The notes under the pieces: model-generated
Seen by the model: only the letters and a program-made list of their open reading frames with translations
What the model was told of the DNA's origin: nothing
Databases searched by the model: none
Program-made: the position numbers and the translations under genes
In this document: positions 24,479 to 29,461 of the stretch, one piece after another
Numbering within the stretch: position 1 is the first letter of the stretch
Layout of the letters: every line of letters begins with the position of its first letter
NCBI RefSeq assembly: GCF_004310425.1
Contig: NZ_SIUB01000001.1
Span: forward strand, 1 to 64,000
Source of the DNA: Hansschlegelia quercus
Lineage (GTDB): Bacteria; Pseudomonadota; Alphaproteobacteria; Rhizobiales; Methylopilaceae
Length of the DNA stretch: 64,000 bases
Direction: 5' to 3'

Positions 24479-25141
24479 ATGTCCGCGCCGCTCCAGATCG
24501 AAATCTTCGCGGACCCCGTCTGCCCATGGTGCTGGATCGGCAAGCGCCGTCTCGAGGCCGCGCTGGCCGCCCGGCCCGATGTCGACGCCACGATCAGCTG
24601 GCGGCCCTACCAGCTCGATCCGACCATTCCGCCCGAAGGCCTCGATCGCGCGGAATATCTCGAGACCAAGTTCGACGATCCCGCCCGGGTGCGGGCGACG
24701 CATGACCAGCTCGCCGCGATCGGGCGTGACGAGGGCATCGCCTTCCTGTTCGGCGACATAGAGCGCGCGCCCAATACGCTCGACGCCCACCGCGCCATCC
24801 GGATCGCCGCCGAGGAAGGCCCGATCGCGCAGGGCGCGCTGATGGAGCGACTGTTCGAGGCCTATTTCACGGAAGGCGAGGACATCTCCGACCACGACGT
24901 CATCGCGCGCGCCGCCGAGGAAGCCGGCCTCGATTGGGAGACCCTGCGCGACCGGCTCGAAGGCGACGAGCAGGCCGAGGAGATCCGCGAGGAAATCGAC
25001 CAGGCCCGCGCCATCGGCGTCGAGGGCGTGCCGTGCTTCATCTTCGCCGGCAAGCTGGTCGTGATGGGCGCCCATCCGCCGGAGGTGCTGGTCGAAGCCA
25101 TGGATCGCGCGCTGGGCGACGAGGACGACGTGGAGGAGTAA
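24479..25141 (+). CDS. DsbA-family oxidoreductase, FrnE-like
   Basis: A 220-residue thioredoxin-fold protein of the DSBA/FrnE (2-hydroxychromene-2-carboxylate isomerase-like) group. The redox motif is CPWC at Cys15-Cys18 directly after the first strand (IEIFADPVCPWCWIGKRRLE), the helical insertion is present, and the cis-proline loop is GVEGVPCF. There is no signal peptide, so it acts in the cytoplasm. FrnE relatives are linked to oxidative-stress tolerance and disulphide reduction. GAGG lies about 11 bases before the ATG. The C-terminus is acidic (GDEDDVEE). A palindromic repeat begins 27 bases after the stop. Confidence 0.9.
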   Translation: MSAPLQIEIFADPVCPWCWIGKRRLEAALAARPDVDATISWRPYQLDPTIPPEGLDRAEYLETKFDDPARVRATHDQLAAIGRDEGIAFLFGDIERAPNTLDAHRAIRIAAEEGPIAQGALMERLFEAYFTEGEDISDHDVIARAAEEAGLDWETLRDRLEGDEQAEEIREEIDQARAIGVEGVPCFIFAGKLVVMGAHPPEVLVEAMDRALGDEDDVEE

Positions 25142-25168: not shown

Positions 25169-25293
25169 CCCTCATCCTTACCTTCTCCCGCATGCGGGAG
25201 AAGGGGGCGTCTACGTCGCTCTATCGGCTTCTGAGATCGCGCGTCCGCTGCCGCCCCCCTCTCCCGCGTGCGGGAGAGGGTAAGGGTGAGGGT
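25169..25293. repeat. 125-bp palindromic repeat (family B), copy 1, downstream of DUF559
   Basis: The outer arms CCCTCATCCTTACC and GGTAAGGGTGAGGG are inverted and almost perfectly complementary. Each side has its own small hairpin (CTCCCGCATGCGGGAG and CTCCCGCGTGCGGGAG). A non-palindromic centre contains CTGAGATCGCG. The copy at 25660-25786 has the same orientation and is nearly identical outside a short central stretch. Its last base coincides with the first base of the stop codon of the DUF559 gene. Confidence 0.85.
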
Positions 25294-25640
25294 CAGTCGA
25301 ACATGACCCCGGCGGCCGCCGCGATCTTCAAGAGCACGCCTTCCGGGTTCTCGAACGCCTCGTTGTTCCAGAAGCGCAGCACGATCCAGCCTTCTCGCGC
25401 GAGATAGGCGTCTCTCCGCCTGTCGGCGTCGGATTCGGCATGTTGCCCGCCGTCGATCTCGACGATCAGCCGCTTCGAGACGCAGGCGAAATCCGCGACA
25501 TACGGCCCGATCGGCGTCTGCCGGCGGAACTTGAGCGAGGCGAGACGCCGGTTGCGCAACAGCCGCCACATCGCGCGTTCCGCATCCGTGGCGTCTCTTC
25601 TGAACACGCGTGCGACGTCGCGTTTCTGTTGGTCACGCAT
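25293..25640 (-). CDS. DUF559 endonuclease-like protein
   Basis: A 115-residue protein of the DUF559 family, related to very-short-patch-repair (Vsr)-like and PD-(D/E)xK nucleases. The nuclease core is visible: LRNRRLASLKFRRQ, then YVADFACVSKRLIVEIDGGQH, giving likely catalytic or metal residues Asp50, Glu61, Asp63 and His67, followed by GWIVLRFWNNEAF. The frame is complete. Members are common in Alphaproteobacteria but have no settled role. The gene is bracketed by two direct copies of a 125-bp palindrome, with the stop codon touching copy 1 and the start 20 bases from copy 2. This suggests a repeat-nuclease cassette. No cognate methylase is nearby, which argues against a restriction system. 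Confidence 0.88.
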   Translation of the reverse strand: MRDQQKRDVARVFRRDATDAERAMWRLLRNRRLASLKFRRQTPIGPYVADFACVSKRLIVEIDGGQHAESDADRRRDAYLAREGWIVLRFWNNEAFENPEGVLLKIAAAAGVMFD

Positions 25641-25659
25641 TCAGAGGGCTCCGGACGCA

Positions 25660-25786
25660 CCCTCATCCTTACCTTCTCCCGCATGCGGGAGAAGGGGGCT
25701 TCGACGTCCGGGCTCCATCTGCCTCTGAGATCGCGCCGCCGCTGCCGGCCCCCTCTCCCGCTTGCGGGAGAGGGTAAGGGTGAGGG
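25660..25786. repeat. 127-bp palindromic repeat (family B), copy 2, upstream of DUF559
   Basis: Second copy of the family B element, in the same orientation as the one at 25169-25293. It shares the outer arms, both internal hairpins and the CTGAGATCGCG centre; differences cluster in the stretch just after GAAGGGGGC. It lies between the DUF559 start and the mfd stop, so it may also act as an mRNA 3' hairpin for mfd. Confidence 0.85.
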
Positions 25787-25812: not shown

Positions 25813-28800
25813 TCAAGCCGCCTTCTTCGTCGCCTCTGCGATCTTCACTAATTCCCGCAGCAGCTTGGCCGCCCCCTTCAGCCGCGCGTTCACGCTCGCC
25901 CACTCCCGCCGGAACACGATCTTCATATCCGGCCGCACCTTGGCGTTAGGCCCCTCTTCGCGGGCAATGTGCATCACCAACCCATCCGGGTTCGCGAAGG
26001 AATTGTCGCGGAACGACAGCACGACCCCCTTCGGGCCGGCGTCAATCTTCTCGACGTTGGCCCGGCGGCAGAGCGCCTTGATGGCGGCGATCTCGAGCAA
26101 CTGCTTCACCTCCGACGGCATCGGCCCGAAGCGGTCGGCGAGTTCGGCCGCGAACTGGTCGAGCGCCTCGTCGGTGTCGATCTCGGCGAGGCGGCGGTAG
26201 AGCGACAGGCGGATCGCGAGGTCGCCGACATACTCCTCCGGGATCATCACCGGCGCGCCGAGCGTGATCTGCGGCGACCACTGGTCGGCGACGACCACCG
26301 CGCCGCCCTCCTTCAGCGCCTCGACGGCGTCGGCCAGCATCTGCTGGTAGAGCTCGTAGCCGACCTCGCGGATATGGCCGGACTGCTCCTCTCCGAGCAG
26401 ATTGCCCGCGCCGCGGATGTCGAGGTCGTGACTCGCCAGCTGGAAGCCGGCGCCCAGTCCCTCAAGCGACTGCAGCACCTTGAGGCGGCGCTCGGCGTTC
26501 GCGGTCGGCGTCTTGTTCGCGGGAATGGTGAACAGCGCATAGGCGCGCGTCTTCGCCCGGCCGACGCGGCCACGAAGCTGGTAGAGCGCCGCGAGGCCGA
26601 ACATGTCGGCGCGATAGACGATCAGCGTGTTGGCGTTCGGGATGTCGAGACCGCTCTCGACGATCGCGGTCGAGAGCAGCACGTCGAAGCGGCCCTCGTA
26701 AAAGTCGGTCATCACCTGCTCTAGCTCGGTCGCGGCCATCTGCCCGTGGGCGACGGCGACTTTCACCTCCGGCACCTCCGCATCGAGGAAACGCCGCGCG
26801 TCGGCGATGTCCTCGATACGCGGGCAGACGAAGAAGGACTGACCGGAGCGGTAGCGCTCGCGCAGCAGCGCCTCGCGCACGATCAGCGGATCGAACGGCG
26901 CGACGAAGCTCCGCACCGCCAGACGATCGACCGGCGGCGTCGCGATCATCGACAGCTCGCGCACGCCCGTCATGGCGAGCTGCAGCGTGCGCGGGATCGG
27001 CGTGGCGGAAAGCGTCAGCACGTGCACCTCGGCGCGCAGCTGCTTCATCTTCTCCTTGTGGCCGACGCCGAAGTGCTGCTCCTCGTCGACGATGACGAGG
27101 CCGAGATCCTTAAACTCGATGGTCTTGCCGAGCAGCGCGTGGGTGCCGACGACGATGTCGACGTCGCCGGAGGCGAGCCCCTTCTTGGTCTCGCTCATCT
27201 CCTTCGACGAGACGAAGCGCGAGGCGTGCCCAACCTTGAGCGGCAGGCCGCGGAAGCGCTCGGCGAAAGTCCTGTAGTGCTGGCGGGACAGCAGCGTGGT
27301 CGGCACGATGACGGCGACCTGCCGCCCCGTCATCGCGACCACGAAGGCCGCGCGGAGCGCCACCTCCGTCTTGCCGAAGCCGACGTCGCCGCACACAAGC
27401 CGGTCCATCGGACGGCCGGCGGCGAGATCGTCCAGCACGGCGTCGATCGCGGCCTGTTGGTCCTCGGTCTCGTCGAAGGCGAAGCGCGCGGCGAACTCGT
27501 CGTAGAGTCCCTCGGCGGGAATGGCGCGCGGGGCCTCCTTGGTCATCCGCGCGGCGGCGATCTTGATCAGCTCGCCCGCCATCTCGCGGATGCGGTTCTT
27601 CAGCCGCGCCTTCCGGCCCTGCCAGCCGGAGCCGCCGAGCTTGTCGAGCTGGGCTTCGGTGTCCTCCGAGCCGTAGCGCGTCAGAAGCTCGATGTTCTCG
27701 ACGGGCAGGAAGAGCTTAGCCTTGTCGGCGTAGTGCAGCTCCAGGCAGTCGTGCGGCGCGCCTGCGGCCTCGATCGACTTGAGGCCGACGAAGCGGCCGA
27801 TGCCGTGATCGACGTGCACCACGAGATCGCCCGGCGCGAGGCCGGCGGCCTCGGTCAGGTAGTTCTGCGCGCGCTTGCGCTTGGCCTTGCCCCGGACCAG
27901 CCGGTCGCCAATCACGTCCTGCTCGGCGATGACCACGACGTCGTCGGTCTCGAAGCCCTGCTCCAGCCCGAACACGCCGAGCGGCACGGCGTCGGACGGC
28001 GACGCCATCGCGTCGCGCCAGCTCGGCACATTACGGGTCGCGACGAGGCCGTGGTCGTTCAGCACGGTCTGCATGCGGTCGCGCGCGCCGTCGGTCCAGG
28101 CGACGATGACGACCCGCTTGCCCTCTTCGCGCTTGGCGCGGACGTGAGCGACGACGGCGTCGAACACGTTGGCGTTCTCGTCGGCGCGCTCGGCCGCGAA
28201 GCTGCGCCCGGCATGGACTCCGGCGTCCAGCACCAGGCCGCCCTGTCCCGCCGGCAGCGCGAAGGGCGCAAAACGGATCGGCGCCGCGCCGGCCAGCCGG
28301 TCGCGCCATTCCTCGGGCGCGAGGTAGAGCGCGTCCGGCGGCAGCGGCTTGTAGGCGCCGCCGGTCTTGTCCTGCGCGAGGTTGGTCTTCCGCGCGTCAA
28401 AGTAGTCCGCGATCAGCGCCAGCCGCTCGCCGGCGGCGTCCTCGACCTGGGGGTCGAGCGTCACCCGCGCGTCGGGGAGGTGGTCAAACAGTGTCGCGAG
28501 CCCGTCGTGGAACAGCGGGAGCCAATGCTCCATGCCGGGATAGCGCCGCCCTTCGCTGGTCGCGGCGTAGAGCTGGTCGTCGCGTCCGGGCGCGCCGAAC
28601 GCCGCGGCGTAGGACTGGCGGAAGCGGCGGATGGTCTCCGAGGTCAGCTGGACCTCGCTCATCGGCACGAGGTCGAGCGACCGGTGCTGCCCCGTCGAGC
28701 GCTGCGTCTCAGGGTCGAACGGCCGGATCGTTTCGAGAATGTCGCCGAAGAAGTCGAGCCGGATCGGCTCGGCGTGGCCGGCCGGGAACAGATCCACGAT

Positions 28801-29325
28801 GCCGCCGCGGATGGCGTATTCGCCATAGTCCCGGACGGTCGAGGACCGCATGAAGCCGTTGACCTCGAGCCACTCGGCGAGCTGCTTGAGGTCGACGACG
28901 TTGCCGGGCGCGGCCGAAAAGCTCTGCCGCGCGACATAAGCCGGAGTCGCCACGCGCTGGAGGGCGGCGTTCACGGTGGTGAGCGTGATGCGCGGCTTCT
29001 CGCCGCCGCGCGACGCCGCAAGGCGGGCGAGCGTCGTGGTGCGCTGCGCGACGATCGCGGCGTTCGGCGAGACGCGGTCATAGGGCTGGCAATCCCAGCC
29101 CGGAAAGACCAGAAGCTCGACGTCCGGCGCCATGAAGCCGAGCGCCCGCTCCATCGCGGCGAGCCGCCGCGTGTCGCGCGCGATGTGCAGCACGCCGCCG
29201 GAATCGTGTCGCTGGCCCGCGAGGCCGCGCGCGAGATCGGCGATGACGAGCGCGTCGAACCCTTCCGGCGCGGATGCGACGGTGACAGGCTTTGCGTCGA
29301 GCAGAGTCTTGAGGTTCAGGGTCAT
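25813..29325 (-). CDS. mfd: Transcription-repair coupling factor Mfd
   Basis: Mfd displaces RNA polymerase stalled at DNA lesions and recruits UvrA. The 1170-residue protein has the full plan: a UvrB-like N-terminal module (FPGWDCQPYDRVSPN and GIVDLFPAGHAEPIRLDFFGD), the CarD-like RNA-polymerase-interacting domain (LAPGDLVVHVDHGIGRFVGL), the RecG-like translocase with Walker A GDVGFGKT near residue 647 and DEEQHFG near 745, the TRG motif region, and the C-terminal TRCF domain. Length is standard. No clear Shine-Dalgarno precedes the ATG at 29325, but the family N-terminus fits. It lies downstream of sdhE, with a 107-bp palindromic repeat between them. Confidence 0.97.
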   Translation of the reverse strand: MTLNLKTLLDAKPVTVASAPEGFDALVIADLARGLAGQRHDSGGVLHIARDTRRLAAMERALGFMAPDVELLVFPGWDCQPYDRVSPNAAIVAQRTTTLARLAASRGGEKPRITLTTVNAALQRVATPAYVARQSFSAAPGNVVDLKQLAEWLEVNGFMRSSTVRDYGEYAIRGGIVDLFPAGHAEPIRLDFFGDILETIRPFDPETQRSTGQHRSLDLVPMSEVQLTSETIRRFRQSYAAAFGAPGRDDQLYAATSEGRRYPGMEHWLPLFHDGLATLFDHLPDARVTLDPQVEDAAGERLALIADYFDARKTNLAQDKTGGAYKPLPPDALYLAPEEWRDRLAGAAPIRFAPFALPAGQGGLVLDAGVHAGRSFAAERADENANVFDAVVAHVRAKREEGKRVVIVAWTDGARDRMQTVLNDHGLVATRNVPSWRDAMASPSDAVPLGVFGLEQGFETDDVVVIAEQDVIGDRLVRGKAKRKRAQNYLTEAAGLAPGDLVVHVDHGIGRFVGLKSIEAAGAPHDCLELHYADKAKLFLPVENIELLTRYGSEDTEAQLDKLGGSGWQGRKARLKNRIREMAGELIKIAAARMTKEAPRAIPAEGLYDEFAARFAFDETEDQQAAIDAVLDDLAAGRPMDRLVCGDVGFGKTEVALRAAFVVAMTGRQVAVIVPTTLLSRQHYRTFAERFRGLPLKVGHASRFVSSKEMSETKKGLASGDVDIVVGTHALLGKTIEFKDLGLVIVDEEQHFGVGHKEKMKQLRAEVHVLTLSATPIPRTLQLAMTGVRELSMIATPPVDRLAVRSFVAPFDPLIVREALLRERYRSGQSFFVCPRIEDIADARRFLDAEVPEVKVAVAHGQMAATELEQVMTDFYEGRFDVLLSTAIVESGLDIPNANTLIVYRADMFGLAALYQLRGRVGRAKTRAYALFTIPANKTPTANAERRLKVLQSLEGLGAGFQLASHDLDIRGAGNLLGEEQSGHIREVGYELYQQMLADAVEALKEGGAVVVADQWSPQITLGAPVMIPEEYVGDLAIRLSLYRRLAEIDTDEALDQFAAELADRFGPMPSEVKQLLEIAAIKALCRRANVEKIDAGPKGVVLSFRDNSFANPDGLVMHIAREEGPNAKVRPDMKIVFRREWASVNARLKGAAKLLRELVKIAEATKKAA

Positions 29326-29354: not shown

Positions 29355-29461
29355 CGTGCTTCGAGACGCTCGCTAACGCGAGCTCCTCAGCATGAGGATC
29401 GTTTGAGCTGCTCGACGGTCGTCATGGCTCGAGGAGCGCCACAGGCGCGTCTCGAAACACG
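29355..29461. repeat. Dispersed ~107-bp palindromic repeat (family A), copy 2
   Basis: This copy aligns along its whole length with 5000-5103. The outer arms are CGTGCTTCGAGACGC and GCGTCTCGAAACACG, with inner CAGCATGAGGA and the shared string GGAGCGCCA. It lies between sdhE and mfd, two genes transcribed in the same direction, so it would be transcribed and could form a long hairpin in that mRNA. Confidence 0.75.

Follow-up and report, generated by a model that had tools for sequence, protein, structure and literature searches.

A DUF559 nuclease gene of Hansschlegelia quercus and its bracketing palindromes: a probable REP/RAYT-like partnership

The stretch of DNA analysed here (the window) comprises the first 64,000 nucleotides of contig NZ_SIUB01000001.1 of Hansschlegelia quercus and contains a small nuclease gene of the DUF559 family that lies between two copies of a palindromic element. 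With a probability of roughly two in three, this gene and its palindromes form one selfish or domesticated unit, a partnership resembling that of repetitive extragenic palindromic (REP) sequences with REP-associated tyrosine transposases (RAYTs) but built on a hydrolytic nuclease of the homing type. As far as sequence comparison can establish it, gene and palindrome are partners across phyla, nuclease-bearing genomes carry many palindrome copies without a gene, and in one genome such gene-less dimers share their ends with specific DUF559 units. An earlier note on this DNA had proposed a REP/RAYT-like unit based on an unrelated enzyme, and this proposal now has strong support from association and specificity as well as from copy families and empty sites.

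Inverted half-elements flank DUF559 genes

The best 80 of 271 confirmed DUF559 loci in named genomes, picked by similarity to the window protein, were analysed; the flanks of 42 of them were inspected, and 75 loci had full flanks. Judged from the record titles, these loci belong to Alpha-, Beta- and Gammaproteobacteria, Desulfobacterales, Dehalococcoidia and other Chloroflexota, Gemmataceae, Verrucomicrobia, Nitrospinota and others, with many metagenome-assembled genomes. The recurring unit is an inverted pair, in which a hairpin-GGGTGAGGG half faces the start codon and a CCCTCACCC-hairpin half faces the stop codon. A strict detector, requiring a hairpin or an inward tag within 200 bp, was positive at 68 of the 75 loci and on both sides in 38, whereas a hairpin or tag was present in 33 of 2769 background windows (controls more than 1 kb away, n=2482: 19 with a hairpin and 19 with a tag). 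Where a tag was found, the nearest one was oriented as expected in 35/37 cases upstream and 27/32 cases downstream. The suggested check of whether DUF559 genes are enriched beside the element was thus answered positively, and their placement is not random. Two or more hairpins on both sides of the gene were rare (2/75 named loci and 2/55 loci of relatives). The direct-repeat arrangement of the window is the exception, and inverted half-elements beside the gene are the conserved feature. Two direct 125-bp copies had initially been regarded as the unit; they are present in the window, but inverted half-elements are found elsewhere and the genome contains no other whole copies.

As the named loci had been selected by similarity to the window protein, a second test was performed on the DUF559 matches in 61 relatives of the window genome, which provided 55 loci with full flanks. 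The detector was positive at 46 of these, one of which (L039) depends on a tag inside an apparently coding stretch. Among the nine negatives, five proteins are long or have a degenerate motif. The remaining four (L180a, L180b, L198 and L208) represent one clade, in which a variant palindrome, CCATGC...GCATGGTGGAGGGGG, is visible but escapes the detector; the negatives were sorted in this way post hoc, when the flanks had already been viewed. A motif-blind test, in which the upstream flank was aligned to the reverse-complemented downstream flank, yielded median scores of 45 (named loci) and 48 (relatives) as compared to 19 in shifted controls, and 53/77 and 36/56 loci exceeded the 99% control level. 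Flanks were taken from the end of the protein match for this purpose; an earlier bracket test with genes extended to the in-frame stop (24/76 loci above all controls) was replaced because reading frames often cross the palindrome. Among control genes, the DUF559-type palindrome was found at 0/11 Y1_Tnp, 1/13 frnE and 1/18 ddl loci, and no palindrome family stood on both sides of any Y1_Tnp, frnE or ddl control locus.

Two further observations concern the placement of the units. The L180 locus (G012 C1:198915-201722) contains two DUF559 matches with identical proteins 490 bp apart, each with palindromes, a recent tandem duplication. The units L104, L181 and L209 adjoin the same gene start in different genomes, as do L130, L179 and L189; we take these neighbours to be pheT and glyS, respectively, and the positions may be old and vertically inherited or preferred sites.

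Gene-less copies and their match to DUF559 units

Hairpin copies per genome reached a median of 12 in the 31 of 61 relatives with DUF559 and 0 in the 30 without it (p 5e-6). The comparison was extended to a phylum sample of 200 Pseudomonadota genomes, in which a best E of 1e-14 or lower was counted as a strong DUF559 match. At least five palindromes were detected in 36 of 47 strong-match genomes as opposed to 9 of 153 others (Fisher p 1e-21, phylogeny not corrected for). The 21 genomes with weak matches only, mostly to long reading frames, resemble those without a match, and G110, one of the nine exceptions, also gives 9 matches to a reversed control pattern. The expectation that the element is commoner where DUF559 is present therefore stood across families but not inside the window's own genus, where copy number did not differ (10 versus 3 genomes).

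Many of the palindrome copies examined are intergenic. Up to 52 inward-facing gene-less dimers (GGTGAGGG N10-40 CCCTCAYC) occur per genome, while the reversed dimer pattern was absent from 60 of the 61 genomes. The DUF559 gene occupies the place that the short spacer (N10-40) takes between the facing halves of these dimers. Many of the dimers in G014 form families with similar spacers, and all 20 that were read (of 28) fit the ends of DUF559 units from that same genome better than equally many foreign unit ends (median score 80.5 versus 45.9), which assigned them to L182, L185 and L183. Own units fit better for 9/20 dimers in G012, a minority matching L178.

Paralogous DUF559 genes in one genome carry different palindrome varieties, and palindrome similarity tracks protein similarity across genomes (0/1000 within-genome permutations). 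After removal of 18 neighbourhood-sharing pairs and four loci as a control for synteny, a rho of 0.13 was obtained, which was reached by 5/2000 within-genome and 64/2000 free permutations. The relation is clearest at high protein similarity: strongly similar palindromes accompany 78% of the 9 pairs above 0.65 relative protein score, 42% of the 33 pairs at 0.55-0.65 and 8-18% of those below. Judged by these comparisons, each nuclease clade tends to have its own palindrome variety.

Filled and empty sites

Empty sites, whose existence had been left as a check, were found at two places. At murB-ddl (L307-L324), G014 carries a dimer at a position where, in its three congeners, the stop codon of one gene overlaps the start codon of the next; within the bacterial family, the palindrome family at this junction changes from one species to another. 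The second place is pstA-pstB of Escherichia coli (L358); when at least 80% of a 190-bp query was required, 2089 of 5375 matching genomes carried the copy. Two aligned strains lack exactly 92 bp and retain a single AACCGTGT, as opposed to one at each end of the segment in K-12, an 8-bp duplication, and a third strain spans 98 bp rather than 190 bp. Insertion is the simpler reading, since Enterobacter hormaechei and Klebsiella pneumoniae possess a 47-bp intergenic stretch without the element. On the strength of such alignments, some palindrome copies are insertion polymorphisms. At zntA-tusA, a second E. coli site, no empty allele was detected, and 13 of 14 among the matches listed hold part of the element together with tusA. 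The frnE-mfd junction could be resolved in 2 of 12 congeners, which contain a GIY-YIG unit (G002) and another open reading frame (G005); neither a clean empty allele nor a single-copy scar was found there.

In E. coli K-12, ycjD belongs to the DUF559 genes, and palindromes of this type lie downstream of it. The repeat beside ycjD is present in 5093 of 5426 E. coli genomes at few copies per genome (median 3 places), and most of the ycjD query was found in only 3359 genomes. A different, AT-rich palindrome (CACCTCATTCTGACA...TGTCAGAATGAGGTG) lies immediately upstream of ycjD in K-12 (L302). Strain 167 (L306) has lost the C-terminal end of ycjD together with the adjoining palindrome, and fabI is 106 bp nearer than in K-12.

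A second nuclease with other palindromes

The sister genome G002 (L163) has, at the position of the window's DUF559 unit, a GIY-YIG gene (PF01541) bracketed by an unrelated palindrome. Of 30 GIY-YIG loci returned for the relatives, 26 were analysed, 11 from a first clade and 15 others. A CTCATGCTGAGGAG...GTCTCGAAG palindrome was present on at least one side at 9/11 first-clade loci, and CGTC-type palindromes were found at 8/15 of the others with a loose and 7/15 with a strict detector (background 7/140 windows). The motif-blind test was passed by 15/26 loci. Three or more copies of the first-clade palindrome occur in 8 of 11 genomes with that clade versus 9 of 50 others (p 0.0008); the window's genome contains 14-18 matches of this palindrome, yet no strong match of the corresponding GIY-YIG clade. 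Palindrome families seldom cross between nuclease types: the two GIY families were seen at 0 and 1 of the 75 named DUF559 loci and at 2 and 2 of the 55 in relatives. The palindrome-rich ddl junction served as a counter-control and holds them on one side in 4/18 and 4/18 cases, never on both. Eight named plasmid loci, of 35 records, were read as well; seven show CGTC-like inverted palindromes by eye, Rhizobium tumorigenes being the visual exception, and 6/8 passed the strict detector on at least one side against a background of 4/31, which is not negligible. Standalone GIY-YIG nucleases seem to form comparable systems, with palindromes of other families.

An association with RAYT-type Y1_Tnp genes was not observed. 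Such genes are present in 11 of the 61 relatives and 5 of the 28 element-rich ones, no match was obtained in the window genome (G000), and the three palindrome families were absent at the 11 Y1 loci with full flanks (of 14 returned).

The DUF559 protein

The window protein belongs to PF04480 (DUF559) with E 5e-39 and 132.9 bits versus a cut-off of 20.6. Residues D50, E61, D63 and H67 do not vary when the window protein is aligned with 42 relatives (43 sequences), and the D/E/D/H motif is intact. The closest fold among the structural neighbours listed is that of the homing endonuclease I-Bth0305I. Neither NCBIfam nor PADLOC gave a defence assignment for the small DUF559 protein; the PADLOC matches are weak, partial and to large proteins. 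YcjD is handled as a PD-(D/E)XK member in PMC1189080, and ycjD is present where eefRABCD is absent according to PMC12817139.

Relation to known repeats and nucleases

REP-like palindromes are common in bacteria. The pairing of REP/REPIN sequences with RAYT (TnpA-REP), as outlined in PMC3733652, involves short tagged palindromes that are often inverted dimers, are intergenic and bracket the enzyme gene. The same combination of dispersed tagged palindromes, inverted dimers and a bracketed enzyme gene characterizes the DUF559 system. The difference lies in the enzyme, which is PD-(D/E)XK or GIY-YIG here and an HUH/Y1 transposase (PF01797) in RAYT. CGTC REPs are described as having no dedicated transposase, and the term GIY is absent from the text of that paper (Di Nocera 2013, PMC3733652). 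Palindromes of the second GIY-YIG group fit the CGTC REPs outlined there, with a CGTC tag, an AT-start stem, a 4-5 nt loop and a CCA tail, and the fitting loci include S. meliloti and A. lipoferum, both among the species listed for these repeats. The remainder of that group does not show these features, and the window palindrome with its CCCTCACCC tag is a different family from CGTC REPs. Outside RAYT-linked families, we know of no enzyme for REP-like palindromes. No report of a nuclease-palindrome pairing was found in the open-access literature searched, a collection with few subscription papers and no preprints. The RIME repeats of rhizobia and BoxC of E. coli are likewise GC-rich palindromic intergenic repeats, and to our knowledge no partner gene has been assigned to either.

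Free-standing homing endonucleases of the I-Bth0305I and GIY-YIG types share the folds and are small standalone genes, but in the present systems a dispersed repeat brackets the gene and many gene-less copies lie at unrelated loci. The mismatch endonuclease Vsr is described as working together with a cytosine methyltransferase, a partnership that would set Vsr and VsrA apart from the present units.

Proposed mechanism and alternative explanations

In the proposed partnership, the nuclease would recognize and cut its cognate hairpin or tag, possibly in hairpin or cruciform shape while the DNA is replicated. The element, once released or broken, would then be copied by host repair into further intergenic positions. 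Units with the gene would be autonomous and dimers without it non-autonomous, and the 8-bp duplication at pstA-pstB suggests a staggered target cut followed by fill-in.

Several observations weigh against this partnership. Since the known activity of PD-(D/E)XK enzymes is hydrolysis, host repair has to be assumed. In three congeners that lack DUF559, the copies number 34, 43 and 1, 9/153 genomes of the phylum sample have at least five elements without a strong match, and 11/47 strong-match genomes have fewer. The dominant dimer family of G012 looks like an orphan, as it matches units of the congeners G003, G005 and G006 and none of its own, and spacer-end matching alone gave a modest excess only (five genomes scored). 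The correlation between palindrome and protein that remains after synteny removal is weak, and some DUF559 units share one gene junction between genomes, as old vertical inheritance predicts. In E. coli, K-12 ycjD bears this palindrome type downstream only, and the repeat persists without the gene, given that repeat-bearing genomes outnumber those with ycjD. Of the two empty sites, only pstA-pstB shows a clean 8-bp duplication, and an unexplained third copy of AACCGTGT within the pst segment makes deletion by slippage possible there. The Caulobacter DUF559 protein VsrA has moreover been tied to cytosine methylation instead (PMC12907096).

A broader proposal is tentative, with the odds slightly against it. 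It envisages a new class of bacterial mobile element: a single hydrolytic nuclease of the homing type, DUF559 or independently GIY-YIG, would cut a cognate REP palindrome and, with host repair, spread its own unit and gene-less copies. Orphan REP families, among them CGTC REPs and the repeat beside ycjD, would thereby have their mobiliser. The data suggest that repeat families long regarded as orphans do have partners, namely DUF559 and GIY-YIG nucleases. If true, DUF559 would gain a role, palindrome-enzyme pairing would have arisen with at least three unrelated enzyme folds, and mobility without a classical transposase would be indicated. A candidate enzyme for several families opens the matter to experiment, with ycjD of E. 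coli K-12 as a suitable object.

Homing into palindromes is an unlikely alternative, although it survives best. Here, another agent would spread the palindromes and the nuclease gene would be a parasite that cuts dimers and is copied between the two half-elements. The location of the gene where gene-less dimers have their short spacer agrees with this idea, as does the I-Bth0305I-like fold; GIY-YIG is a homing fold as well. However, palindrome abundance depends strongly on the nuclease in the phylum sample, no RAYT association offers another agent, and the G014 dimers share ends with specific nuclease units.

A role in regulation or immunity, where the flanking hairpins would set how much of a toxic nuclease is made, or where the palindromes would be incidental to an enzyme of Vsr-like repair or phage defence, is improbable. 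It leaves unexplained why there are many gene-less copies, why these co-occur with the gene and why insertions are polymorphic, and the PADLOC matches are weak and partial. Slightly less credit still is due to a passive cassette or hotspot, where palindromes gather as terminators or tolerated sites and both components are merely frequent between genes. The many intergenic copies, the species-dependent families at murB-ddl and the GIY-type and CGTC-type palindromes at ddl would suit such a hotspot, but it is disfavoured by the oriented tags, the genome-level and control-locus counts, the absence of any family from both sides of control genes and the rarity of crossing between nuclease types. 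Least credible is the earlier idea of a cassette that leaves the window by recombination of its direct 125-bp repeats: same-orientation copies are indeed present, but direct copies are missing from most loci, few loci have double hairpins on both flanks, and the two congeners resolved at frnE-mfd have other contents and no single-copy scar.

The window locus

The window is part of contig C7 of a 3.58-Mb genome in 17 contigs. The DUF559 gene (25293..25640, minus strand, 115 residues, PD-(D/E)XK fold) and the element copies sit between a plus-strand gene at 24479-25141, presumably DsbA/FrnE-like, and a minus-strand gene at 25813-29325, which we take to be mfd. Both copies have the architecture tag-hairpin-spacer-hairpin-tag and no assigned strand. 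Copy 1 (25169..25292) starts with the tag CCCTCATCC and contains hairpins at 25181-25204 and 25257-25280 and the tag GGGTGAGGG at 25284-25292; in copy 2 (25660..25786), the tag CCCTCATCC is followed by hairpins at 25672-25695 and 25751-25774 and by GGGTGAGGG at 25778-25786. The copies are 124-127 bp long, have the same orientation and are 91% identical (positions 1-124), which confirms the original description of a DUF559 gene between two such palindromic copies. The stop codon (TCA on the plus strand, 25293-25295) adjoins copy 1 as described, but copy 1 ends at 25292, and the ATG (25638-25640) is 19 bases from copy 2 rather than 20. Directly downstream of the gene, the inner half-element (25252..25292, minus strand) reads CCCTCACCC-TTACC-hairpin on the gene strand and is the part that recurs across phyla. 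Its upstream counterpart (25660..25699, minus strand) reads hairpin-GGTAAGGATGAGGG, followed by the 19 bases and the ATG.

Folding of the copies gave z-scores of -9.7 (copy 1) and -7.4 (copy 2) relative to shuffled sequences, and 0/200 shuffles each reached the real fold. Sub-threshold Rfam matches of the element, mostly to eukaryotic miRNA families, were taken as palindrome artefacts. The hairpin pattern has eight matches in the window (four palindromes, both strands; 0.01 expected), all inside copies 1 and 2, and the rest of the genome contains only about 9 further element places, which are halves or inward-facing dimers and not whole 125-bp copies. One copy of a GIY-YIG-associated palindrome (CTCATGCTGAGGAG...GTCTCGAA) is located at 29360-29396, just upstream of mfd.
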